Source: Nitrosospira sp. NpAV (GTDB taxonomy: Bacteria; Pseudomonadota; Gammaproteobacteria; Burkholderiales; Nitrosomonadaceae). Taken from it: DNA of 64,000 bases. Below the pieces are notes generated by a model. The model had not been told where the DNA came from, did not search any database, and worked only from the letters and a program-made list of their open reading frames with translations. Within the stretch, counting starts at the first letter, position 1, and the number at the start of each line of letters is the position of its first letter. The stretch is taken from the NCBI RefSeq assembly GCF_000832065.1, contig NZ_JXQM01000001.1:186001-250000 (forward strand), written 5' to 3'. This document shows positions 20,298-33,682 of the stretch, piece after piece. The position numbers were made by a program, and so were the translations under genes.

Positions 20298-20984
20298 TCA
20301 GGATTTGTCGTTTGCTGCAGCCGTAGAGCTGGCGGAACTGGCAGGATTATTGCCATGCAGCAATACCGCTTGTGACTGGCCGGGATGTTTTTTGCCGTTG
20401 CCGGGCGTTACGACACCCATGGAAATAATATATTTGAGCGCCGCATCCACGCTCATATCGAGCTCGATCACGTCGCTTTTCGGCATCATCAGAAAGAATC
20501 CGGAAGTGGGATTGGGCGTGGTGGGCACATACACGCTCACATACTCTCCCGAGAGATGATTAACCACATCACCACCGGGATAGCCGGTCATGAACGCGAT
20601 AGTCCATGAACCCTCACGCGGATATTGCACCAGCAATGCTTTACGGAAGGCTTCGCCCTGGCTAGAAAACAACGTGTCACTGACTTGCTTGACGCCATAA
20701 TAGATCGATTTCACCACCGGGATGCGCCATAAAACGCCTTCCCAGAACAACACCAACCGCTGGCCGATGATGTTGGTCGTCAGCAAGCCGGTGATGAATA
20801 CCACCAGCAGCGTCAGCACCGTGCCGACACCGGGAATATGAAACCCCACCAGGGCCTCGGGATGAAGCTTGGCCGGTAATAACAGCAGCGACTGGTCCAT
20901 GGTGCCAATCAAAAAATTCAACGCCCAGGCGGTGATGCCGAGAGGTACCCAGATAAGGAGTCCGGTGACGAAATAACGTTTCAT
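20298..20984 (-). CDS. DUF502 family membrane protein
   Basis: 228 residues. [24 protein letters not shown]-type first membrane helix (~1-30) and a second helix around 60-85 ([21 protein letters not shown]), then the conserved [19 protein letters not shown] segment and a soluble C-terminal domain with [18 protein letters not shown]. Function unknown in bacteria; a plant homologue affects membrane trafficking. It sits between FmdB and aspS on the same strand with 26-32-base gaps, a conserved arrangement in beta-proteobacteria that implies one operon. Confidence 0.92.
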
Positions 20985-21010
20985 TATTGGGAGATGCCCG
21001 CTCCGGGGAT

Positions 21011-21307
21011 TCAGTCAGTGGTGCAGGCCGGGCACGAGGCATCGGCTGCTGGTGCGGTTGTACCGGCGGTTTCGCTCTTTGTAGCCGCAGCGGTTTCTGC
21101 ATCGGCCTTGGGTTTCGGCTTCGCGCCATTCTTGAAATCGGTCGCGTACCAGCCACTGCCCTTCAACTGAAACCCCGCGGCGGAAATAAGTTTCGTGTAA
21201 GCATTGCTGCCGCACGCGGGGCAAGCCGCAACCGGCGCATCATTCACTTTTTGCAGATATTCTTTTTCAAACCCACAAGATCCACAGCGATATTCATAAA
21301 TCGGCAT
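21011..21307 (-). CDS. FmdB-family zinc-ribbon protein
   Basis: 98 residues starting MPIYEYRCGSCGFEKEYLQK; this ATG at 21307 is chosen over an upstream in-frame one because the family always begins with MP-x-YEY. Two CxxC pairs (CGSC, CPAC) form a zinc ribbon at residues 8-40. The Ala/Thr/Lys-rich tail ends with another CPAC pair. The family is called putative regulatory protein after FmdB of formamidase operons, but its role is unknown. It heads the FmdB-DUF502-aspS block. Confidence 0.92.
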   Translation of the reverse strand: MPIYEYRCGSCGFEKEYLQKVNDAPVAACPACGSNAYTKLISAAGFQLKGSGWYATDFKNGAKPKPKADAETAAATKSETAGTTAPAADASCPACTTD

Positions 21308-21475
21308 GACAACCTCCAGCAAAGCGGAATTTGAAAGAAACAGGATTATACCTCAACCACTTGGTTTTACCGGATATATGGGCTGCAATTGAGATTACAA
21401 GGGAAAATATGGCCACAATGGCGTATCAAAATATAGGCATGGGAGCAAGGCGCATGGGGATATTTATAATTTGCA

Positions 21476-21895
21476 TCAAACCGGCTCCCCACGATTGGCT
21501 TGCCAGAATCCTTCTAAATCAAACGAAAGCTGGCGGTAATGGCGGATCGTTAGCAGGTATACCGTAATTGGCTGTCCCGTGGTTCCGGGGCCATCCTCCG
21601 CGCCATAGAGGATCAAATAGTCGCCTGAAAGATACTCGCGTACGTCGATATTGCCCAGGCGCTGTTGCAACTTGGAGACACGGTCACGGACTTCCAGTGA
21701 TTGAGGTGAGCGGGCGAAAAAGCGTCGCCCTATGCCGGGATGCCGTTCCAAGTTGTCGATGATGGTCTGTTCCAGGTCTTCAAGTAACTGCATGAAGGCG
21801 TGCGAAGCTTCCTGATCCAACCAGAATGCATCAATCGATGCAAGATTGAACTCGAAGTTAGCGGTAAATTTGACGGTGGCTTTTGGTGAAGCCAC
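21476..21895 (-). CDS. RelE/ParE-like toxin
   Basis: 139 residues. FTANFEFNLASIDAFWLDQEA and a helix with LEDLEQTIIDNLERHPGIGRRF match the two N-terminal helices of ParE/RelE-type toxins; the strand pair GDYLILYGAED and ITVYLLTIRHYRQLSFDL gives the C-terminal sheet with the usual IRHxRQ ending. Such toxins block gyrase (ParE) or cut mRNA on ribosomes (RelE); which applies is unknown. The antitoxin expected just upstream is preserved only as a C-terminal remnant 4 bases away. First gene at the left edge of the defence island. Confidence 0.8.
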   Translation of the reverse strand: MASPKATVKFTANFEFNLASIDAFWLDQEASHAFMQLLEDLEQTIIDNLERHPGIGRRFFARSPQSLEVRDRVSKLQQRLGNIDVREYLSGDYLILYGAEDGPGTTGQPITVYLLTIRHYRQLSFDLEGFWQANRGEPV

Positions 21896-21899
21896 GGGT

Positions 21900-22022
21900 T
21901 CAGCGCTTGGGGGAGCGAGCGGCGTGTTTTGCGTTGCGCTTCAAGCCGGCCAGGACCGTTCGAGCATTGCGCGTACGGCCAGCTTCTATATCGGCTAGAC
22001 CTTTCTCGACATCGTCGATTAA
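21900..22022 (-). pseudogene. antitoxin remnant of the ParE-like pair
   Basis: About 40 codons (IDDVEKGLADIEAGRTRNAR, then a basic tail) look like the toxin-wrapping C-terminal half of a ParD/RelB-type antitoxin, in the expected place 4 bases before the toxin start. The frame stays open upstream to 22160, but that part (CHFVAHSAIVFIHCLSPFF) resembles no DNA-binding domain, and no good start lies near the conserved part. The N-terminal half seems lost. A non-ATG start making a very short antitoxin cannot be excluded. Confidence 0.5.
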
Positions 22023-22298
22023 CAGGAGGTGGATACGAAAGAATGGTGACAGGCAGTGGATGAAGACTATGGCAGAATGTGCGACAAAGTGGCAATAAAT
22101 GTGCCGCAATGTGTCAAGAATATGTGAATACCGACTGTAGGATGGATGTGGCAAAAGCACGCTGAAACACTCACGTTCATACGGGCAGTGGTTTTTCGGC
22201 CGATTGACCTCGCCGCTGCGACCGGCCGGATGGCCAAGCGTCCATCCCGAACATCAACCCAGGTCCTATGAGGACTTTGCAGCGGCGTGCCCTTTCGC

Positions 22299-22341
22299 GG
22301 CCAATTTTTGGCTGGCTACGCTACGCATGGTAAAATTGGCC
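22299..22341. promoter_or_regulatory. inverted repeat upstream of the defence cassette
   Basis: GGCCAATTTT at 22299-22308 and its exact complement AAAATTGGCC at 22332-22341, 23 bases apart, ending 48 bases before the HTH gene. The right arm runs on into a TTGGCCAAACTTGGC stretch. A plausible operator for the small HTH protein, which would then control its own cassette (inference). Confidence 0.45.
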
Positions 22342-22389
22342 AAACTTGGCAACTAAAATTCAATCTCGGCAAACACCGAAGACGAGACA

Positions 22390-22590
22390 ATGACTGGTAC
22401 AGAGGACGAAATCCTGACGCTCGACGAAGTTGCTGCATTTCTCAAGACCGGGAAGCGGACGGCCTACCGTCTCGCCCAGAAGGGCGAAATTCCGGCCTTT
22501 AAGCTTGGAGGAACTTGGCGTTTTCGCCGCTCCGAGCTGGATAGCTGGATCGCCGAAAGCATCAACAAGATGAAGCCAGAGGCAGAGTAA
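22390..22590 (+). CDS. small excisionase-type HTH protein
   Basis: 66 residues: a single MerR/Xis-like helix-turn-helix of the HTH_17 kind. ILTLDEVAAFLKTGKRTAYR forms the two HTH helices, LAQKGEIPAFKLGGTWRFRR the wing, and SELDSWIAESI the closing helix. Such proteins act as recombination directionality factors or as small transcriptional regulators. No integrase is near, and the gene is 61 bases before the Snf2 helicase on the same strand, so control of the cassette is the more likely job (inference). An inverted repeat lies just upstream. Confidence 0.85.
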   Translation: MTGTEDEILTLDEVAAFLKTGKRTAYRLAQKGEIPAFKLGGTWRFRRSELDSWIAESINKMKPEAE

Positions 22591-22651
22591 ACGTGAGCAA
22601 GGTCAGCAACCGAGTCACGTCTGGACAAGGAAAAAGAGAGGGCCGCCACTG

Positions 22652-25516
22652 ATGACACAGCAGCTTCTGACACCGCATCAGAGTCAGTACTACGCATGGC
22701 TGCTGACTCGACGCGCGGCAGGCGATACCGTGGAATCGCTCGCATCCACGTTGGTGGACTCGCAAGTCGATCTCAACCCGCATCAGGTTGAGGCTGCGCT
22801 GTTCGCCTGCAAGAACCCGCTGTCGAAGGGAGTGATCCTCGCGGATGAAGTTGGTCTTGGAAAGACCATCGAAGCTGGACTGGTCATCTCGCAGCGATGG
22901 GCGGAGCGCCGTCGTCGCATTCTGATCATTGTCCCTGCCAACTTGCGTAAGCAGTGGCATCAAGAACTGCAAGACAAGTTCGGATTGCAGTGCACGATTC
23001 TGGAAGCCAAGAACTACAACACTGCCCGGAACGGTGAGTGCCATAATCTACAGCTTGCCGGGCCGATTATCTGCTCGTATCAATTTGCGAAGAGCAAGGC
23101 CGACGATGTTAGGGCCATAGATTGGGACCTCGTCGTGCTTGATGAAGCGCATCGGCTACGCAACGCCTATAAGACGAGCAACATTATCGCGCGCACATTG
23201 AAAGATGCGCTGTCGAAAGTGCATTCCAAAGTATTGTTGACTGCGACACCATTGCAGAACTCGTTACTGGAGCTGTACGGTTTGGTCAGCATTATTGATG
23301 ACCGTGTTTTCGGCGACCTCGATAGCTTCCGCACGCAGTTTGGCGGGCAGGCAAAGGGCGCAGGATTCAATAGTTTGAAAACTCGCCTTGCACCGATCTG
23401 TAAGCGCACCTTGCGACAACACGTCCAGCCCTATGTGTCGTATACCGCTCGCAAAGCCATCGTACAGGAATTCACACCGTCGAACGATGAACGCGAGCTA
23501 TCCGATCTTGTAGCTGAATATTTGCGGCGGCAAAACCTCAAGGCGCTGCCGGATGGTCAACGGCAACTGATTTCCCTCGTGCTGTGGAAACTGCTGGCGT
23601 CATCCTCGCATGCGATTGCAGGCGCGTTGGACACCATGGCGAATCGCTTGCAAGGCTTGCTCGATGATGCAGCATCAGCTCCCGATCTGGCGGAAAAGTT
23701 CGACGAAGATTACGAATCGCTCGACGAAACTGCAGATGAGTGGGACGGTGACGGTAGCGACGGCCCGGCACTAGCGCCGCAGAATCGGGATCTGATTGCA
23801 CAGGAGATTGAGGAGCTACGGCGCTTCAAGAATCTGGCAACCAATATTCGCAACGATGCAAAAGGAAGTGTACTTCTAACTGCGCTCGACAAAGCATTTG
23901 CTGAACTGGAGCGATTACAGGCTCCAAAAAAAGCAATCATCTTTACCGAGTCAAAGCGCACGCAGGAATACCTGCTGTCGTTGCTAGCAGACTCGTCGTA
24001 TGGCAAAGGCATTGTGCTGTTCAATGGGACGAACAGCGATGCCCGCGCACAAACCATTTACAAGGATTGGTTGAAGCGACACGAGGGAACTGACAGAATT
24101 AGCGGCTCGAAAACCGCCGATACGCGCGCTGCCTTGGTCGAGCATTTCAAAGAGCGCGGCACGGTCATGATCGCGACCGAGGCCGGGGCCGAAGGTATCA
24201 ATCTTCAGTTCTGCTCCCTAGTCATCAACTATGACCTGCCGTGGAACCCGCAGCGTATCGAACAGCGAATCGGTCGGTGCCATCGCTATGGGCAGAAATT
24301 CGATGTTGTTGTTGTCAATTTCGTTGATCGGAGCAACGCGGCAGACGCTCGGGTGTATGACCTGCTTGACCAGAAATTCAAGCTGTTTGAAGGCGTGTTC
24401 GGAGCCAGTGACGAGGTGCTGGGAGCGATTGGTTCCGGCGTCGATTTCGAGCGGCGAATTGCCGAGATTTATCAGAATTGCCGCGACTCGGATGCCATCA
24501 AAACAGGTTTTGAACAGCTGCAACTTGAACTCTCCGGCGAGATCAATGAGGCAATGGTCAAAACACGGCAGCTATTGATCGAAAACTTCGACGAAGAAGT
24601 ACAAAACAAGCTGCGGGTGCGTAAGGAAGACAGCCTTGCCGCAAGAAGCCGGTTCGAGCGGATGTTGCTAGACCTGACGTTTTCCGAGCTTGGGACCGGC
24701 GCGGCATTCGACGAGCATGGATTTGTGCTCAGTCAACTGCCCGCCAGCGACGTGCTTAGCATTGAGTTGGGCCGCTATGAGCTTCCACGGAGAAGCGGTG
24801 ACGCTCACCTGTACCGGCTCGGCCACCCACTCGCTGAATGGGTACTAAATCAGGCGAAAGATCGTCAGCTAACCTCAACACGCCTCGTGTTTGATTATGA
24901 GGCACACGGCACACAAGTAAGTACCTTATTGCCATACCGCCAAAGGACTGGCTGGCTTACCGTGAACCTCGTCAAGGTTGAAGCACTGGACCGCTGGGAG
25001 GAGCACCTGATCCTGTCCGCAACCACAGCCGACGGTAGCGTACTTGAAGAGGATGATCCGGCAAAGTTGCTGCGCCTCCCTGCGCATGCGAAGCCGATAG
25101 GCTCTGTTGCCATAGAAAACGCGGCGCTATCGGCAGACTTGGAGGCACGCAAGGTCGAAATTCTACACGGCATCAATCAGCGCAACCTTGGCTATTTCGA
25201 GCAAGAAGTCGAAAAGCTCGACGCTTGGGCAGATGACCTAAAATTGGGCTTGGAGCAAGAAATCAAGGAAACGGACCGAGAGATAAAAGAGGTCCGTCGC
25301 ACTGCTGCTGTTTCGCCCACACTCGATGAAAAACTCCACTGGCAAAAGCGCCAACGGGAACTTGAAGGTAAACGTAGCAAGCTCCGCCGCGAATTGTTTG
25401 ATCGGCAAGACGAGGTCGAGTCGCAACGCAACGATTTGATTGCGCAGCTTGAGCAGCAATTGCAACAAAAGGTGGAGGAGAAGACCCTGTTTACCGTCGA
25501 ATGGGAATTGCTCTGA
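22652..25516 (+). CDS. Snf2/RapA-type DEAD-box helicase of the defence cassette
   Basis: 954 residues. A Snf2-family superfamily-2 helicase: Walker A in LADEVGLGKTIEAG (65-72), DEAH box at 164-167 in VVLDEAHRLRN, motif III TATPLQNS (~197), and motifs V-VI in ATEAGAEGINLQF and QRIGRCHRYGQ (~538-548). The acidic linker at ~350-375 separates the two RecA lobes. Residues ~840-950 are a long charged coiled coil. No nuclease motif seen. Snf2 proteins translocate on double-stranded DNA; a similar subunit (DrmD) is used by class 1 DISARM, but the other DISARM genes are absent. The stop overlaps the AIPR start (ATGA), so the two are coupled. Confidence 0.9.
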   Translation: MTQQLLTPHQSQYYAWLLTRRAAGDTVESLASTLVDSQVDLNPHQVEAALFACKNPLSKGVILADEVGLGKTIEAGLVISQRWAERRRRILIIVPANLRKQWHQELQDKFGLQCTILEAKNYNTARNGECHNLQLAGPIICSYQFAKSKADDVRAIDWDLVVLDEAHRLRNAYKTSNIIARTLKDALSKVHSKVLLTATPLQNSLLELYGLVSIIDDRVFGDLDSFRTQFGGQAKGAGFNSLKTRLAPICKRTLRQHVQPYVSYTARKAIVQEFTPSNDERELSDLVAEYLRRQNLKALPDGQRQLISLVLWKLLASSSHAIAGALDTMANRLQGLLDDAASAPDLAEKFDEDYESLDETADEWDGDGSDGPALAPQNRDLIAQEIEELRRFKNLATNIRNDAKGSVLLTALDKAFAELERLQAPKKAIIFTESKRTQEYLLSLLADSSYGKGIVLFNGTNSDARAQTIYKDWLKRHEGTDRISGSKTADTRAALVEHFKERGTVMIATEAGAEGINLQFCSLVINYDLPWNPQRIEQRIGRCHRYGQKFDVVVVNFVDRSNAADARVYDLLDQKFKLFEGVFGASDEVLGAIGSGVDFERRIAEIYQNCRDSDAIKTGFEQLQLELSGEINEAMVKTRQLLIENFDEEVQNKLRVRKEDSLAARSRFERMLLDLTFSELGTGAAFDEHGFVLSQLPASDVLSIELGRYELPRRSGDAHLYRLGHPLAEWVLNQAKDRQLTSTRLVFDYEAHGTQVSTLLPYRQRTGWLTVNLVKVEALDRWEEHLILSATTADGSVLEEDDPAKLLRLPAHAKPIGSVAIENAALSADLEARKVEILHGINQRNLGYFEQEVEKLDAWADDLKLGLEQEIKETDREIKEVRRTAAVSPTLDEKLHWQKRQRELEGKRSKLRRELFDRQDEVESQRNDLIAQLEQQLQQKVEEKTLFTVEWELL

Positions 25517-27261
25517 TGGCGGCCCCAATACGCCCGCTGGAGCTGACTTTGTTATGCGCGCGACTGGATGAATTTTTCGCAGAGCGCATTATTGGAACCG
25601 GCCAAACGGATGAAGCTCGTCGCAGCAATTTTTTGTCGAAGGCCATTGCAGCGTTCGTGCTCTATGAGGATGCAGGTGCAAGCCTGGATGAAGCCATCGC
25701 AGCAAGCATTGACGGCGGTTTCGATCAAGGAATTGATTCGGTTTTTATTGCTGCCGACCAAACAATATGGCTCGTCCAATCAAAGTACAAAGATACTGGT
25801 GTCGGCGAGCCAGAGCTAGGTGAAGTATCGAAATTCCGCGATGGCGTGTTCGATCTGCTGCAAGGACGTTGGGAGCGATTTAACGCAGCGCTACAAGCGC
25901 ATGGAGCCGCACTCATGAGTGCATTGAGTAACGAAGCCCGCGTGCGCGTCGTGCTCGTTCATTCAGGCACGGCTATCTCCGACGACCGACGCCACATCTT
26001 CAGTGAAATAGAACGAGCCTTCAACGGTGCGAGACCCGACTTCGTGAAGTGTTATAGCTACGGTTTGGTGACTTTGCACGAGCTGCACATTGATGGTCGA
26101 TCCGCGCCGGACATCGAGGAAAATATCGTGTTACGCGATTTCGGCCATACCGTCGCTCCCTACAAAGCAGTGTATGGGCGTATCGACGCCAAACGTCTGG
26201 CTGAATTATGGGCTGAGTATAAGGATCATCTCGTCGAGCGGAATATTCGTCGTTTCAAAGGCTCTACCGTCGTCAACGCGGGGCTAAGCGAGACGCTGCA
26301 ACAAGAGGCTGATCACTTTTTTTATTTCAACAATGGCGTGACCTTCCTTTGCGACAGGTTCAGGGAGCAGGCCCCCATAGATCCTTACCGATTATCCGGG
26401 ACGTTTCAATTCAAAGGGCTTTCAATCATCAACGGCGCACAAACCGTTGGAGCCATCGCGCAAGAACCGGCCGCCTACTATGACGCACATCCTGCCGAAG
26501 TCCTGGCTACGTTTGTCTGCCTTGAAAATGCCCCCGATGATTTCGGCGACAGGGTGACAAGATCACGAAATCGGCAGAATGCTGTCGATCTGGAAGATTT
26601 TGCCGCGTTGGACGAGCGACAGTCGGTTTGGCGGCAAACGCTGGAAATGGCAGGCGTGGAGTATCAGGTCAAGCACGGCGATGACGATGCCCCAGCGTCC
26701 AATACTTGCTTCAGCATCAGGGATGCCGCACCGATTCTGGCATGCACGATGACTGGGAGCGATTGGCAAGAGTTTGTCGTGGCTGCCAAGACCGATAAGA
26801 GGCGTTTGTTTGGAAGAGCTGGACTCGTCGGCGAAAGTGATTCTTTACGTGATGCCTATTTCCGGCTATTCCCCGACTCGCTCACGGCAAGACAGATTTG
26901 GCGTTCTGTGCAAATCGGCCGGATCGTACAGACCAAAGTTCGGGATCGTGCAAGTGCTGAGGCCGACCCGGCAAATCTTCCTGCGGAAACGCTGCCAGCG
27001 CGCGAAATCCTTAAGCATTGTGGATGGCTACTTCTGCACGTCCTGTTCATCCGCACACAGCTGCAAAACGGCGTCGAGTTAATGCTGACGATGAATGAAT
27101 GTGGCGACCTCTCAAGAGAGATCGACACGGTAGCGCAACGCATGGTGGATGTTGTGCAGGCCATGCAATGGAACAAACAAGCGCGCAGCGTGTTCGAGAA
27201 CCGGGCAGATTGTCGCGCAGTGAAGGGTCGCCTGATGGCGGCGCTCGCGCAGCAGAATTAG
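25516..27261 (+). CDS. AIPR family protein (abortive phage infection)
   Basis: 581 residues from the ATG inside the helicase stop overlap (25516); an in-frame start 15 bases earlier would overlap more. The AIPR domain is shown by FFYFNNGVTFLCD (~268-280) and by the LSIINGAQTVGAIAQ segment (~300-315). The N-terminal region has a restriction-fold signature: Asp-74 in GGFDQGIDSVFIAADQ and the Gln-x-Lys pair in WLVQSKYKD (88-90), the D-(x)n-QxK form of the PD-(D/E)xK nuclease core. AIPR proteins are linked to phage abortive infection and found near restriction genes. It ends 8 bases before the methyltransferase start. Confidence 0.88.
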   Translation: MAAPIRPLELTLLCARLDEFFAERIIGTGQTDEARRSNFLSKAIAAFVLYEDAGASLDEAIAASIDGGFDQGIDSVFIAADQTIWLVQSKYKDTGVGEPELGEVSKFRDGVFDLLQGRWERFNAALQAHGAALMSALSNEARVRVVLVHSGTAISDDRRHIFSEIERAFNGARPDFVKCYSYGLVTLHELHIDGRSAPDIEENIVLRDFGHTVAPYKAVYGRIDAKRLAELWAEYKDHLVERNIRRFKGSTVVNAGLSETLQQEADHFFYFNNGVTFLCDRFREQAPIDPYRLSGTFQFKGLSIINGAQTVGAIAQEPAAYYDAHPAEVLATFVCLENAPDDFGDRVTRSRNRQNAVDLEDFAALDERQSVWRQTLEMAGVEYQVKHGDDDAPASNTCFSIRDAAPILACTMTGSDWQEFVVAAKTDKRRLFGRAGLVGESDSLRDAYFRLFPDSLTARQIWRSVQIGRIVQTKVRDRASAEADPANLPAETLPAREILKHCGWLLLHVLFIRTQLQNGVELMLTMNECGDLSREIDTVAQRMVDVVQAMQWNKQARSVFENRADCRAVKGRLMAALAQQN

Positions 27262-27269
27262 GAATACTT

Positions 27270-28961
27270 ATGTCAAAACAAAAACTAGAACTCACTTGGA
27301 TCGGCAAAGAGAAACGGCCGAAGCTGGAGCCGCGCATCTTGCTTGAGGACCCGGAGAAATCGTATCACGCAAAGCATCGTGTGTCCGAAGATGACATCTT
27401 TGACAACCGGTTGATCTTTGGCGACAACCTGCTTGCACTCAAAGCGCTGGAGCAGGAGTTTTCCGGAAAGGTGAAATGTGTCTTCATTGATCCTCCGTAT
27501 AACACGGGTAGCGCCTTCACCCACTATGACGATGGGCTAGAACATTCAATCTGGTTGGGGCTGATGCGGGATCGACTGGAGATCATTCAGCGCTTGCTGT
27601 CTGAGGATGGATCATTGTGGATTACGATTGACGACAAAGAGGCACATTACCTCAAGGTATTATGTGATGAGATATTTGGGCGAGGAAATTTTGTCGCGAG
27701 CAATATCTGGCAGAAGCGATATTCACGTGAAAATCGTGAAGCCATCGGCGATGCACATGATTACGTCATTCTATATGCCAAGAATGCTGAGCGTTTTAAA
27801 GCAATTCGCAATAGGGTTCCGATTACTGGAGAACAGGCAAAGATATACAAAAATCCTAACAATCATCCTCGTGGTCGCTGGCGCGGTATCCCGATGACGG
27901 CGCAAGGGTATCGCTCGAATCAAATGTACAAGATCACTGCTCCAGGCGGTGCAGAACACTATCCACCCGAGGGGCGTTGCTGGTCGACGATTGAACCAGA
28001 ATTCCAAAAACTTCGTGATGCAGGCCGTATTTACTTTGGAAAGGACGGAAACGGACAACCGAATTTGATTCGCTTTCTCGATGAAGTTGAGGGTTTTGTT
28101 CCGTGGACTTGGTGGCCGCATGAGGAAGTCGGACATACGGACGAGGCAAAGAAAGAAATGTACGCACTCTCAGGAAAAGAAGATGTGTTCGCTACGCCTA
28201 AGCCGGAGCGTCTTCTGAGGCGAGTCATTCACATAGCCACGAAGCCCGGCGATCTGATTCTCGACTCTTTCGCAGGATCTGGCACTACTGGGGCAGTCGC
28301 TCACAAGATGGGTCGACGCTGGATCATGGTCGAACTTGGTGAACATTGTCATACCCACGTCATTCCACGCATGAAAAGAGTTGTTGACGGTGAAGACAGA
28401 GGAGGAGTCACCGAAGCCGTAAACTGGCAAGGCGGCGGCGGTTTTCGCTACTACAAATTGGCGCCGAGCCTGATCGTCAATGACCGCTGGGGCAACCCAG
28501 TCATTAATCCTGAGTACAACGCTGCACAGTTGGCGGAGGCTCTGGCCAAGCTCGAAGGGTTCGCCTATGCGCCATCTGAAATGCGATGGTGGCAACACGG
28601 TCATTCCAGCGAACTCGATTTCATTTATGTCACGACGCAGAACCTGTCGCACGATCAGTTGCAGTCGCTCTCCGATGAGGTCGGCGGCGATCAGAGTTTG
28701 CTCGTGTGTTGCGCGGCTTTCCACGGCGTAACCGCAGCCAAGGCGGCTGAGCGCTGGCCGAATCTGACACTTAAGAAGATTCCGAAAATGGTGTTGGCTC
28801 GCTGCGAATGGGGCCATGACGACTACAGTTTGAACGTGGCGAACCTACCAATGGCTCAGGTGGAAATGCCATATGCTGCTAACCCCTCTAGTACTGCTAA
28901 GACATTGATAGACAAGAAAGTAGTCCCTGAGCAAGGCGGCCTGTTCAGAGAGGGCGAATAA
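27270..28961 (+). CDS. type III-like DNA methyltransferase (Mod)
   Basis: 563 residues from the ATG at 27270; the frame extends further upstream but that part overlaps the AIPR gene. A beta-class amino-methyltransferase: the catalytic DPPY (74-77, in VFIDPPYNTGS) comes before the SAM-binding FAGSGTT (334-340), the order of type III Mod subunits and adenine-N6 or cytosine-N4 enzymes. LIFGDNLLALKAL precedes the DPPY. The middle (~150-290) would hold target recognition; the C-terminal ~180 residues are a further domain ending in a basic tail. It would protect host DNA and, in type III systems, guide Res. The next gene starts on its last stop base. Confidence 0.93.
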   Translation: MSKQKLELTWIGKEKRPKLEPRILLEDPEKSYHAKHRVSEDDIFDNRLIFGDNLLALKALEQEFSGKVKCVFIDPPYNTGSAFTHYDDGLEHSIWLGLMRDRLEIIQRLLSEDGSLWITIDDKEAHYLKVLCDEIFGRGNFVASNIWQKRYSRENREAIGDAHDYVILYAKNAERFKAIRNRVPITGEQAKIYKNPNNHPRGRWRGIPMTAQGYRSNQMYKITAPGGAEHYPPEGRCWSTIEPEFQKLRDAGRIYFGKDGNGQPNLIRFLDEVEGFVPWTWWPHEEVGHTDEAKKEMYALSGKEDVFATPKPERLLRRVIHIATKPGDLILDSFAGSGTTGAVAHKMGRRWIMVELGEHCHTHVIPRMKRVVDGEDRGGVTEAVNWQGGGGFRYYKLAPSLIVNDRWGNPVINPEYNAAQLAEALAKLEGFAYAPSEMRWWQHGHSSELDFIYVTTQNLSHDQLQSLSDEVGGDQSLLVCCAAFHGVTAAKAAERWPNLTLKKIPKMVLARCEWGHDDYSLNVANLPMAQVEMPYAANPSSTAKTLIDKKVVPEQGGLFREGE

Positions 28962-31702
28962 TGAATGTACGCGTTCAGAACGCCGTTACCGGTCGTTTGT
29001 CTCTTCGTCCGCCACAAGCTGAATCTCTCTCGAAATTGATTCGCGCACTCCAAGCCGCTCCTGATCTTCTATGTCACGAGCGTGATGTCTCGGCCATCCT
29101 TTCCGTACTGAAGACCGAGTTCACCACACTAGAGGACTTTGAGCGCGAATTCCCATCGGTGTGTTTTTCGCTCGCTACTGGTGTTGGCAAGACGCGCCTG
29201 ATGGGTGCGTTCATTGCTTACTTGCACCTGGCACACGGCATCAACAACTTCTTTGTGTTGGCACCCAACCTGACGATTTACAACAAGCTGATCAATGACT
29301 TCACGCGCAATACACCGAAATATGTCTTCAAGGGCATCGCCGAATTTGCACAACAGTCTCCCTTGATCATTACCGGTGATAACTACGATCAGACCGGTGC
29401 CGCCGTTGAAAATCAGGGTATGGGCTTCGCCCATGATGTACGCATCAACATCTTCAACATCTCCAAGATCAATTCAGAAGTGCGGGGGGGCAGAGAGCCA
29501 CGCATTAAGCGGATGAAGGAAGTGCTGGGTGAGAGCTATTTCGATCACCTCGCCAACCTGACCGACCTCGTGCTGCTGATGGATGAGTCGCACCGCTACA
29601 GAGCAAGCGCGGGCGTGCGATCCATTAACGAACTCAAGCCACTTCTCGGCCTTGAAGTGACCGCGACGCCCTTTGTGGAATCCACACGCGGACCTGTTCC
29701 GTTCAAGAATGTAGTGATGGACTATCCGCTGGCTCGCGCCATGGAGGATGGTTTCGTCAAAGAACCTGCTGTTGTCACCCAGTGCAACTTCGACGTTAAG
29801 GCGCACACGCCGGAAGAGGTCGAGAAGACCAAGCTGGAGGACGGCGTGCGCCTGCACGAAACGACTAAAGTCGAGTTGCTGACTTACGCCCGCGAAAACA
29901 GCGTCAAAGTAGTCAAACCGTTCATGTTGGTTATTGCACGCGATACTACGCATGCGGCACAGCTTAAAACACTGATCGAATCTGCAGCTTTCTATGAAGG
30001 GCGCTATGAAGGCAAAGTGATTCAGGTCGACTCCAGCCGTACCGGCGCGGAAGAGGAGGAAATGATCACGCGCCTGCTCGCGGTAGAAAGCGTGGATGAG
30101 CCAACCGAGATCGTGATTCACGTCAACATGCTCAAAGAGGGCTGGGACGTGACTAACCTCTACACCATCGTGCCGCTGCGCGCAGCCAATGCGCGCACAC
30201 TGATCGAACAATCCATCGGTCGCGGCTTGCGCCTGCCCTATGGCAAGCGTACAGGCGTAGCGTCAGTAGATCGCTTGAACATCGTCGCGCACGACAAATT
30301 CCAAGAAATCATCGACGAGGCCAACCGTGGCGATTCGCCGATTCGCTTGAAGCAAGTCATTCTCGATGCGCCGAGCGCTGATGATAAGAAGGTCAGTGTG
30401 CAGGTGGGATCGGGAGCGATGACGCACCTTGGTTTAGCGGACGCGCCGGTAGTGGCGCTGGCCCCATCTGGTAATGGCACTGCCGCTGGTACAACGTCAG
30501 CGACCCCGCCTGCCCCGGTATTCACAACGGATGCAGAGAAGCAGGCCGCTCGCGTCGTGATAGATGTGATCGGTAAGTACGAGGTCAAACGCGATCTCGT
30601 TCCGACCAGCGCAGCGTTGCTGAAGCCCGAAGTGCAGAAAGAGATTCTGGCCGAGGTAGCCGAGCGTCTAAAGCCAATGCAAGGGAATTTGCTGGCAGGC
30701 GCTGACAAGAGCGCTCCAGAACTCGATCTGTTGGCAGTGGTGACAAAAACCACGGAGATAGTGATTCAGCAAACTATCGACATTCCGCGCATCGCAGTAG
30801 TGCCGACTGGCGAGGTCACAACTGGCTTTCATCCGTTCAAGATCGACGTGAGCCAACTTCACCTCCAACCCGGCCAACGGGAAATCGTGGGGCAGATGTT
30901 GCGTACTAACGAGCAGTTTACCTTAGCGGCGGAAGTGGGCCTGAAGGAACAGCGTCCAGAGGACTATATCGTCCACGCGCTGGTGGACTTCGACGACATC
31001 GATTACTTCACGCACGCCAATCTACTGTATGACTTATCCGGGCAGACGGTGCAACACCTCCGGAGCTATCTCTCCGAAGACGAGGCTGTCAATGTGCTAG
31101 ACCGAGATCGCCGCCTGATCGCACGCGAGATTCGCGCGCAGATGATGGCACATTTCTGGGAAGAAGCGACTGAGTACGAGGTGCAAGTTAGCCGTGGCTT
31201 CACAGAATTGAAACCCTGCAACTACACCGCGACGGCAGGCCAGACGGCGCATCACTTCCGGGAAACGGTCGTCGAGATAAGCCGCATCAAGCAGATGCTG
31301 TTCGGTGGCTTTGCCCGGTGCCTGTATCCGCTACAGAAATTCGACTCGGATACCGAACGCCGATTCGCGATCATCCTGGAGCGTGATACTTCGAAGTGGT
31401 TTAAGCCAGCCAAAGGGCAGTTCCAGATTTTTTACAAGCTCGGTACTGAGCAGCCCGAGTACATACCGGATTTCGTTGCGGAAACGGACACAACGGTTTT
31501 CATGGTAGAAACCAAGGCGCGCACCGACATCAATACCCAAGAGGTTCAGGCGAAGGCCGCTGCAGCAGCACGCTGGTGCAAGTACGCATCAGATCATGCC
31601 GCGACGGTGGGCACAAAGCCATGGAAGTACCTGCTGCTGCCCCACGATGAGATTGCAGAATCGAAGCGACTCTCGTATTACTTGCGATTTGAGGTGAAGT
31701 GA
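28961..31702 (+). CDS. type III-like restriction helicase-nuclease (Res)
   Basis: 913 residues. Superfamily-2 helicase with Walker A ATGVGKT (72-78), DESH box (208-211 in LLMDESHRYRA), TATPF motif, and motif VI in EQSIGRGLRLPYG. The C-terminal region carries a PD-(D/E)xK endonuclease centre: YIPDFVAE (Pro-836, Asp-837) and, 13 residues later, VETKAR with Glu-850 and Lys-852. This matches the Res subunit of type III enzymes, which translocate and cut after Mod finds unmodified sites. A Thr/Ala/Pro-rich linker sits at ~485-515. Start and previous stop overlap (TAATG), so Mod and Res are coupled. Confidence 0.92.
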   Translation: MNVRVQNAVTGRLSLRPPQAESLSKLIRALQAAPDLLCHERDVSAILSVLKTEFTTLEDFEREFPSVCFSLATGVGKTRLMGAFIAYLHLAHGINNFFVLAPNLTIYNKLINDFTRNTPKYVFKGIAEFAQQSPLIITGDNYDQTGAAVENQGMGFAHDVRINIFNISKINSEVRGGREPRIKRMKEVLGESYFDHLANLTDLVLLMDESHRYRASAGVRSINELKPLLGLEVTATPFVESTRGPVPFKNVVMDYPLARAMEDGFVKEPAVVTQCNFDVKAHTPEEVEKTKLEDGVRLHETTKVELLTYARENSVKVVKPFMLVIARDTTHAAQLKTLIESAAFYEGRYEGKVIQVDSSRTGAEEEEMITRLLAVESVDEPTEIVIHVNMLKEGWDVTNLYTIVPLRAANARTLIEQSIGRGLRLPYGKRTGVASVDRLNIVAHDKFQEIIDEANRGDSPIRLKQVILDAPSADDKKVSVQVGSGAMTHLGLADAPVVALAPSGNGTAAGTTSATPPAPVFTTDAEKQAARVVIDVIGKYEVKRDLVPTSAALLKPEVQKEILAEVAERLKPMQGNLLAGADKSAPELDLLAVVTKTTEIVIQQTIDIPRIAVVPTGEVTTGFHPFKIDVSQLHLQPGQREIVGQMLRTNEQFTLAAEVGLKEQRPEDYIVHALVDFDDIDYFTHANLLYDLSGQTVQHLRSYLSEDEAVNVLDRDRRLIAREIRAQMMAHFWEEATEYEVQVSRGFTELKPCNYTATAGQTAHHFRETVVEISRIKQMLFGGFARCLYPLQKFDSDTERRFAIILERDTSKWFKPAKGQFQIFYKLGTEQPEYIPDFVAETDTTVFMVETKARTDINTQEVQAKAAAAARWCKYASDHAATVGTKPWKYLLLPHDEIAESKRLSYYLRFEVK

Positions 31703-31854
31703 AATAGACGTGCGGCCGACTCGCTGTGAAACATGGCGAATGCATTCATTTAGTTAGAGTGAATCCACTTTGAACCGGGAGCGGCATAGTGGGCACGAGA
31801 AAGAGTAATGAGCGATCTATCGGGAAGCGGACGCCGCAAGCTCGGAAAGCTGGT

Positions 31855-32575
31855 ATGAGCAGCGACTACACTCTGAACTTCTTGGATCACACCTATGGGG
31901 AGTTCTTCGAAGAGGACCGTGTTAAGATCGACGCAGAGTGCTACAAAGTGCGCAGCACCTCATAGGCTGACCGGATGCGCACCTTCTGGGGAAACCGACG
32001 GCAATCATATGGTCGGTCGAGTGATTGACGACCTGATCGGGTATGGAGCTGACGAGCAGTGCTTTGGCGACAGCAATTCATTGCTGATTGACGACTGCCG
32101 CAAGATCGCACAACGCCTGCTCAGCGATCAGCTCGAAGGCGGCTTGGATCGCCTGAATACCTTCGTCAACAAGTTCATCCGTGTGACCTGCGAGCCGCAC
32201 GGCATCGAGATCAACCAAGGCAAGCCACTGCATAGCGTCTTCGGGGAATATGTGAAAGCGCTGCGCGATGATGCTCACCTTGAGTCAGTGATGACCGAGC
32301 ACATCCTGAAATCCAGCATCTCGGTGTCGGAAGCGTTCAACGATGTTCGCAACAACAAGAGCCTCGCGCACGACAACCCGATATTGAACTATGACGAAAG
32401 CCTGCTGATCTTCACCCACGTCGCCGCGTCGATCCACTTCATCAAGTCGCTGGAAACAAAGATCAAGGCCAACAAGCCGCCATCAAGGCTCATAGCTGGG
32501 CAGACGATACTGATACATTGCCCTTATGACGCAGGGTTCTTTGGCATCTGCCAGAAGCTTTGTGAAATCTCCTGA
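31855..32575 (+). pseudogene. abortive-infection protein (Abi_C/HEPN-like), broken N-terminus
   Basis: Reading from the ATG at 31855 gives a plausible start (SSDYTLNFLDHTYGEFFEED) but hits TAG at 31963-31965 where the family usually has Lys. The same frame then continues ADRMRTFWGN, and the match shifts to the +1 frame (MVGRVIDDLIGYGADEQ) by ~32010, so there is one stop and one frameshift. The C-terminal part fits the abortive-infection C-terminal domain and keeps RNNKSLAH, matching the HEPN R-x6-H motif of many RNase toxins. It may still make a C-terminal product from an internal start, but a full-length protein is not encoded. It follows Res by ~150 bases. Confidence 0.7.
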
Positions 32576-32590
32576 AATCACCTTGACGAC

Positions 32591-33682
32591 TCAGACGTTA
32601 AACCGAAAGTGCATCACATCCCCATCCTTGACCACGTACTCCTTGCCTTCCAGTCGCATCTTGCCTGCCTCCTTCGCACCCTGCTCGCCTTTGCAGGCGA
32701 TGAAGTCGTCATAAGCGATGACTTCCGCGCGGATGAAACCTTTCTCGAAATCGGTATGAATCACCGCGGCGGCCTGCGGAGCAGTATCGCCCTTGGAGAT
32801 GGTCCAGGCGCGCACTTCCTTTACACCGGCGGTGAAGTAGGTTTGCAACCCGAGTAGCTGGTAGGCAGCGCGAACCAGCCGATTCAGCCCCGGCTCTTCC
32901 AGATTCATATCAGCCAGAAAAACTTGTTTATCCTCATCCGGCATTTCCGCGATTTCCGCTTCCAGGGCTGCGCAGATCGCCACCACTGGCGCACCCTCTT
33001 TGGCGGCGTATTCCTGTACGCGCGCCAGCAGCGGGTTTCCGGTGAACCCCATTTCGTCCACATTGGCGACGTAGATGGCGGGTTTGCCGGTCAGCAGGCA
33101 GAGCGGCTTCAGTAATTGCTGTTGCTCCTTGTCCAATCCCAGGCTTCTGGCGGGGTTGCCCTGATCGAGATGAGCCCGTGTCATTTCCAGCAGCGCCACC
33201 AGCTTGATCGCATCCTTGTTGCCGGACTTGGCCAGCTTGGTTTCACGTTGCAGCGCCTTTTCCACCGTCGCCAGATCGGCCAGGGCCAATTCGGTCTGTA
33301 TGGTTTCGATATCCGAGACCGGGTCCACGTTGCCGTTGACATGCACGACATTGTCATTGACGAAGCAGCGCACCATGTTGATGATGCCATCGGTTTCACG
33401 GATGGTGGCGAGAAATTTGTTGCCCAGCCCTTCGCCTTTGGATGCACCCGCGACAAGACCGGCGATATCGACAAACTCGACGATGGCAGGCTGCACCTTT
33501 TGCGGGTTGACGATCGCGCTGAGTTTGGACAAGCGCTGATCGGGCACTTCGACGATGCCGATATTCGGTTCGATGGTGCAGAAGGGATAGTTTTCCGCCG
33601 AGATGCCCGCCCGGGTCAGCGCATTGAACAGCGTGGATTTTCCTACATTGGGCAGGCCCACGATACCGCATTTCAGGCTCAT
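32591..33682 (-). CDS. ychF: redox-regulated ATPase/GTPase YchF
   Basis: 363 residues. OBG-family P-loop NTPase that binds ribosomes and prefers ATP. G1 is [18 protein letters not shown] (~8-25), G3 is in [20 protein letters not shown], the G4 site is the unusual NVDE form in [10 protein letters not shown], a coiled-coil insertion follows ~140-190, and the C-terminal TGS-like domain ends [18 protein letters not shown]. Last gene of the lolB-ispE-prs-rplY-pth-ychF run; its 3' end borders the defence island directly. Confidence 0.97.

Follow-up and report, generated by a model that had tools for sequence, protein, structure and literature searches.

Defence genes nested in restriction-modification (R-M) loci are known from several systems. 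PrrC, RloC, GmrSD-type and HEC nested defences are the precedents (PMC2610378, PMC12707154, PMC11411939), AIPR genes have been called common in R-M operons (PMC2292703), and toxins and AIPR proteins were proposed in 2012 to accompany R-M loci and to displace one another (PMC3506569). Other systems that combine Snf2 helicases with methylases are BREX-related or of the YprA type (PMC12839542, PMC12458937). A five-gene cassette of Nitrosospira sp. NpAV was compared with these systems. The window, i.e. the whole stretch of DNA analysed, consists of 64,000 nucleotides (positions 186,001 to 250,000 of contig NZ_JXQM01000001.1, which measures 531 kb in a genome of 3.45 Mb). The cassette joins a Snf2 helicase to type III-like modification (Mod) and restriction (Res) genes, and the gap between Snf2 and Mod, filled here by an AIPR gene, is very probably an exchangeable effector slot. 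The five genes are as follows.

22390..22590, + strand: excisionase-type helix-turn-helix (HTH) protein of 66 aa, probable regulator, optional in relatives (HTH_17, 68.1 bits)
22652..25516, + strand: Snf2/RapA-like superfamily 2 (SF2) helicase of 954 aa, core (SNF2-rel_dom, 115 bits; Helicase_C, 79 bits)
25516..27261, + strand: AIPR protein, slot cargo, with a predicted N-terminal PD-(D/E)XK-like nuclease domain and an AIPR domain
27270..28961, + strand: Mod, type III-like DNA methyltransferase of 563 aa, core (N6_N4_Mtase, PF01555, 156 bits; PADLOC MTase_III, 707 bits)
28961..31702, + strand: Res, type III-like, SF2 helicase with a C-terminal PD-(D/E)XK-type motif, 913 aa, core (ResIII, 85 bits; PADLOC REase_III, 689 bits)

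All five genes are intact, are separated by gaps near zero and, as the first-pass annotation of this DNA had reported, lie on one strand (+) between 22390 and 31702. The junctions that it described were likewise each read in the sequence. An in-frame ATG at 25516 overlaps the stop codon of Snf2 (TGATG) and is taken here as the AIPR start in place of the position 15 bases earlier (25501) given by the open reading frame (ORF) caller. Eight bases separate the AIPR stop from the Mod ATG at 27270, a start read from the sequence, the ORF caller's 27099 being too long; Res begins at 28961, in the stop codon of Mod (TAATG). Together with HTH, which precedes Snf2 by 61 bases, these genes form an operon-like unit. 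No telling repeats were found in 20900-32700. The observation made in the first-pass annotation is confirmed in this way; its interpretation is supported in part, as set out below.

The family assignments of the core were confirmed by motifs and profiles. Snf2 carries DEVGLGKT, DEAH, TATP and QRIGRCHRYGQ; its top PDB profile match is RapA and its best PADLOC match the DrmD model (651 bits). For the type III-like character of Mod and Res, claimed earlier, the Pfam, PADLOC and motif matches agree: in Mod, DPPY precedes FAGSGT, the motif order of type III enzymes, and Res combines the SF2 helicase motifs TGVGKT and DESH with a C-terminal PDF..ExK of the PD-(D/E)XK type. In PDB profile comparisons Res matches EcoP15I Res best, at a distance (E 8e-8, best stretch 49 profile positions). 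The PADLOC matches listed for the five proteins are component models, and in NCBIfam only the generic excisionase domain TIGR01764 scored above curated cut-offs.

Co-occurrence of the core genes was determined in 150 related genomes, that of the window included, using E 1e-150 or better for Snf2 and E 1e-100 or better for Res. Snf2 was found in 27 genomes, Res in 24 and both in 21, where 4.3 were expected (Fisher 2e-17). In all 21 double carriers a linked pair lies on one contig and one strand, 1.7-7.8 kb apart; surplus Snf2 or Res matches in genomes G060, G061 and G068 are unpaired. The earlier proposal that Snf2 is tied to restriction genes is borne out by these counts. The order Snf2-[slot]-Mod-Res was found across phyla. 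Of 566 Snf2 relatives in named genomes the best 80 were used, and for 59 of these 5 kb downstream was in view: 45 were followed by Mod and Res, three by Mod only and 11 by neither, with Mod-like genes upstream of Snf2 in three of these 11. Seen from Res (20 places from the class search, window excluded), Snf2 lies upstream in 10 and is lacking there in four (L046, L051, L054, L061), the other six being cut by contig ends. Pairwise distances of Snf2 and Res correlate with r 0.91 over the 13 loci with an AIPR gene in the slot. Snf2 is a regular companion of the restriction genes and belongs with Res.

HTH is an optional rather than a constant part: its presence in the cassette was confirmed, and an HTH of the window's type stands upstream of Snf2 in 13 of the 113 loci with at least 700 bases upstream in view, other regulator types being uncounted. 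Mod varies in stretches, and the Mod proteins of L041, L054 and L072 align well to that of the window over only ~219-255 residues, the patchiness that exchange of target-recognition parts would be expected to leave. In a second class of loci (L035 10763-20515, L110, L134 and others) the partners of the same Snf2 are a methylase of ~1050 aa and a helicase of ~1100 aa; this class also occurs on a Klebsiella plasmid. A Res relative of 56% identity is present in fifteen Salmonella plasmid records; in the one inspected plasmid (L034 6232-16247), an IS256 element and an Abi-family gene lie between Snf2 and Mod. Res had no match in phage records at E 1e-30.

The slot was analysed in 53 loci, the window and 52 others in which Snf2, Mod and Res exceed set scores and follow one another in this order on a single strand. 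The set excludes loci interrupted by the end of a contig, those of the ~1050-aa methylase class, and L078 and L167, taken to be duplicates of L074 and L107, respectively. A same-strand gene of at least 150 aa is present between Snf2 and Mod in 40 of the 53 loci, AIPR in 13 and other cargo in 27; in the remaining 13 the slot is empty, and because of these empty slots its product is not needed everywhere. At least one such gene also lies between Mod and Res in nine loci. The alternatives to AIPR include DSR2, IetAS, SIR2-HerA, PtuAB-like, PrrC/RloC-like, Schlafen, Abi_2 and Abi_C genes, labels that were taken from cluster representatives or from BLAST against them. Two claims of the first-pass annotation are decided by these counts. 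AIPR had been read as part of an expanded type III-like system, yet it is no fixed component, being present in only 13 of 53 core loci. A search for the same gene order in other genomes had been proposed, and it is Snf2-[slot]-Mod-Res that recurs, the five-gene set not being constant.

Genes of at least 150 aa between Snf2 and Res are oriented with the core in 66 cases and against it in eight, compared with 53:41 in the upstream and 51:35 in the downstream flanks. Contents were compared between 68 slot genes (same-strand only, window not included) and the 89 flank genes that lie nearest, whatever their strand, a comparison that is not fully even; the Pfam and PADLOC tallies list 25 families out of 37 (slot Pfam), 119 (flank Pfam) and 348. 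Among the families listed for the slot genes are AIPR (12), AAA_21 (9), AAA_13 (5; the AAA counts overlap), Schlafen AlbA_2 (4), RhuM, DUF4276 and Abi_2 (3 each), and YhcG/DUF1016, subtilase and zeta toxin (2 each), with single matches to AbiEi, ThsA Macro, SIR2, HepT, DUF2130 and transposase. The flank genes fall into 119 Pfam families, of which none listed has more than four members, several are housekeeping and a few are defence families. PADLOC names for the cargo are DSR2 (1e-143), IetS (4e-257), PtuB (8e-44), ThsA Macro (1e-60), PDC-S05 and PDC-S06; its HEC-01A model matches seven of the 68 slot genes, and a cargo protein of 785 aa is distantly LmuB-like.

Twenty further stretches from close relatives, labelled by BLAST to the earlier cargo or by Pfam, hold DSR2, SIR2-HerA, IetAS, DUF2130, OLD-like, PrrC/RloC-like ATPase, Schlafen, distantly GmrSD-like and Abi_C genes; the slot of G120 is empty. 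In G018, of the same genus, Snf2 and Res are 79% and 87% identical to those of the window and the slot content is different. Unrelated genomes (L048, L053, L061, L312) repeatedly have a pair of IetA/IetS-like AAA and subtilase genes next to the core or to its Mod and Res genes.

The AIPR gene of the window was exchanged relative to its core. Pairwise identities over the 13 AIPR-slot loci average 62% for Snf2, 58% for Mod, 63% for Res and 37% for AIPR; Snf2 and AIPR distances correlate with r 0.37, still above chance (Mantel 0.008). The window is 76-78% identical in Snf2 and 79-87% in Res to L074, L075, L077 and L079. Among themselves the AIPRs of these four are 69-77% alike, yet the window AIPR is 25-27% identical to them. 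In trees of Snf2 and Res these five loci form a 100/100 clade, which the AIPR tree rejects (approximately unbiased (AU) test, 7e-5), joining the window instead to L049 (100/99), a locus with a distant core. That pairing is in turn rejected by Snf2 (AU 1e-61), Res (8e-7) and Mod (6e-7). The five-locus clade is neither recovered nor rejected by Mod (0.053). The groups for the AU tests were picked after the identities were seen.

In 369 genomes of the class, two of 13 PF10592 places lie in a Snf2-Mod-Res locus, while one more, at a contig edge, cannot be judged; on viral contigs, some of them short, this holds for one of 78 loci. Yet among the nearest 150 relatives AIPR occupies the slot in five of seven AIPR-bearing genomes. 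Separation of Snf2 and AIPR homologues from Mod-Res had been named earlier as evidence against a joint system: Snf2 is mostly linked, AIPR at large mostly apart, the nearest relatives excepted. Slot AIPRs cluster in the tree (2 changes, against 12.2 in shuffles), and their grouping as one clade is not rejected (AU 0.57), long branches being present. Tree conflict, clustering and distribution therefore suggest an AIPR lineage that moves chiefly among slots of this locus type. Elsewhere in the genome of the window lies a second AIPR gene, a distant one (G000:C297:120475-121227, L190); the 17 kb retrieved with it contain no match to Snf2, Mod or Res.

The window protein belongs to the AIPR family (PF10592, 125 bits; curated cut-off 25), and NNG and NGAQT are invariant in an alignment of 30 sequences. 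A first structural model was poor (predicted local distance difference test 66.8) and the Foldseek search with it weak; a better model gave nothing at E 0.001 or below, and no match to PDB sequences was obtained. In the predicted structure an N-terminal FokI-like nuclease domain has the PD-(D/E)XK core fold and the acidic/K active-site motif. The AIPR protein is therefore likely to be a nuclease. The HEPN label given to the AIPR N-terminus in the excerpt of PMC3506569 is not supported by the predicted fold, which resembles a FokI-type nuclease instead. The second domain weakly resembles ParB and is perhaps ParB-like.

Compared with the described systems, the locus resembles type III R-M (EcoP15I-like) in its N6/N4 Mod and in a Res that combines an SF2 helicase with PD-(D/E)XK, and differs in its regular Snf2 partner and effector slot, as well as in the distant EcoP15I profile match. 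With PrrC/EcoprrI and the rlo inserts of type I hsd loci it shares effectors embedded among R-M genes; AAA_13 (PrrC/RloC-like) and DUF262 (GmrSD_N) cargo also occurs beside this Snf2, the two DUF262 loci (L038, L064) having more distant Mod and Res and standing outside the 53-locus set. The hosts of PrrC and rlo are type I loci, whereas here a Snf2-type III-like locus carries a different protein, AIPR. RloF as an AIPR protein was discarded as a parallel: according to PMC11411939 it is a DUF262 protein. Hma-embedded candidates and nested defences of the BrxU/TgvAB type are similar in that defences are nested in a larger restriction locus; as far as the excerpts describe them, the hosts of such nested defences are a DUF499 ATPase-methylase-helicase set, BREX or type I loci, and not Snf2-Mod-Res. 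The coupling hypothesis of 2012 likewise links AIPR to R-M, with repeated displacement of toxins in type I and type III loci, while the excerpt of PMC3506569 contains neither a Snf2 core nor a tree test. In the literature covered, which leaves out subscription journals and most preprints so that novelty is unproven, a Snf2-Mod-Res set with a cargo slot was not found described. Embedded effectors in R-M loci are already known; a Snf2-Mod-Res platform with a swappable slot may be new.

The cassette lies in an interval of variable size. The flanking genes, judged by their proteins, are presumably aspS, DUF502 and ychF. Two further features belong to this region.

20985..32590, no strand: variable interval from the DUF502/aspS pair to ychF, holds the cassette
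31895..32575, + strand: ORF with an Abi_C domain, 3' of Res, possible further effector outside the core (PF14355, 47 bits)

The ychF neighbourhood was fetched for 20 of the 22 other genomes of the genus. In the 14 with all three flank genes in view, the distance from the DUF502-like gene to ychF is 0.8-9.0 kb, as against 11.6 kb in the window; in the other six the aspS/DUF502 pair falls outside the fetched stretch. AIPR was found in no other genome of the genus (E 1e-20); Snf2 and Res occur in two of these genomes, G010 and G018, on contigs that do not carry ychF. The interval is a hot spot of gene gain, and the cassette was thus most likely acquired at this variable site. A stop interrupts what appears to be an earlier part of the Abi_C ORF just upstream (31808-32575), and this gene may have decayed.

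Several explanations of the locus were weighed. That AIPR and Snf2 are obligate subunits of an integrated, five-gene expanded type III enzyme would agree with the close packing and with the 13 loci, out of 53, that have an AIPR gene at this position; one of them, from Deinococcus, is distant. This explanation is nevertheless very unlikely, given 13 of 53 loci without a same-strand gene of at least 150 aa between Snf2 and Mod, 27 with other families and the conflict between AIPR and core trees; for AIPR itself, empty or otherwise filled slots and that conflict rule out an obligate subunit. Passive clustering, in which defence genes would accumulate at a hot spot by horizontal transfer and their place in the slot would mean nothing for function, fits the variable interval and the defence genes among the flanks (Mrr, reverse transcriptase, YhcG). 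The co-orientation of slot genes (66:8), their greater share of effectors than in the immediate flanks and several overlapping junctions make it improbable. Descent from DISARM, a BREX-related/Hma system or MADS after loss of other genes has even less to recommend it and is scarcely credible. DISARM class 1 shares the DrmD-type Snf2 helicase, so that the link suggested by the first-pass annotation stands for the helicase family and for nothing beyond it: the cassette has a type III-like Res instead, Snf2 scores below the NCBIfam DrmD cut-offs (660 bits versus 950), the DrmA match to Snf2 is a helicase cross-match, and DrmB and DrmC are not among the PADLOC matches listed for the cassette proteins (complete for HTH, AIPR and Res, best 25 for Snf2 and Mod). 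The BREX-related/Hma definition includes a DUF499 AAA+ ATPase (PMC12839542); none was found among the Pfam matches of the cassette proteins, nor among those listed (25 of 37 families) for the 68 slot genes, although DrmA/B/C and DUF499 were not searched for in those loci. HTH scores 79.9 bits with the MAD1 model NF047737, just under its cut-off of 80, and no other mad gene is among the matches listed (best 25 for Snf2 and Mod). MADS comprises eight genes, the HTH gene MAD1 and MAD2-MAD8. Assignment to DISARM or Hma was rejected on these PADLOC, Pfam and NCBIfam scores and assignment to MADS judged very unlikely, and the identical Snf2-Mod-Res order in 53 loci also speaks against a fragment.

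The reading preferred here, with a probability of roughly 0.65, is a modular anti-phage locus in which a Snf2-assisted type III-like core is combined with an exchangeable, probably back-up, effector. Judging from their families, Mod would mark host DNA and Res would cut unmarked DNA after ATP-driven movement. The Snf2 motor, which resembles RapA, DrmD and BrxH proteins, probably prepares DNA for Res by clearing or remodelling it where it is protein-bound or replicating. AIPR, with its predicted FokI-like domain, would presumably cleave DNA (or RNA), a second line of defence once the core is evaded or overwhelmed; the odds are slightly in favour of such a back-up role within the same response. 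The strongest competitor, by analogy with PrrC, is that the Snf2-Mod-Res complex silences the slot protein and that phage inhibition of restriction would free it, a swap altering the weapon under the same trigger. The PrrC-EcoprrI precedent (excerpts of PMC2610378, PMC12707154 and PMC3506569), the AAA_13 PrrC/RloC-like ATPases in the same slot (L299, 631 bits; L045), the separate cluster of slot AIPRs moved between cores and the close packing of the genes are in line with such guarding. Slots also hold whole systems, however, and a common docking surface for such unrelated folds is hard to imagine. DSR2, IetAS, SIR2-HerA and PtuAB work alone with their own triggers. Because several cargo types do so, nested and mostly autonomous back-up effectors are favoured over a docking guard, which is unlikely, and direct contact with the core as the restraint on AIPR is doubtful.

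The locus type is widespread and, with its fixed core and variable slot, mechanically searchable, and uncharacterised genes in the slot are strong candidates for new effectors. One core with differing cargo offers a direct way to test if abortive effectors are triggered by restriction systems or simply travel with them, a question that arose with PrrC and has been settled for few such genes. Tentatively, Snf2-Mod-Res may be an effector-exchange platform, in which the core would sense infection or its own inhibition and license any slot effector, slot-adapted lineages such as the slot AIPRs shuttling between cores. If this is true, one conserved sensor would fire many unrelated weapons.
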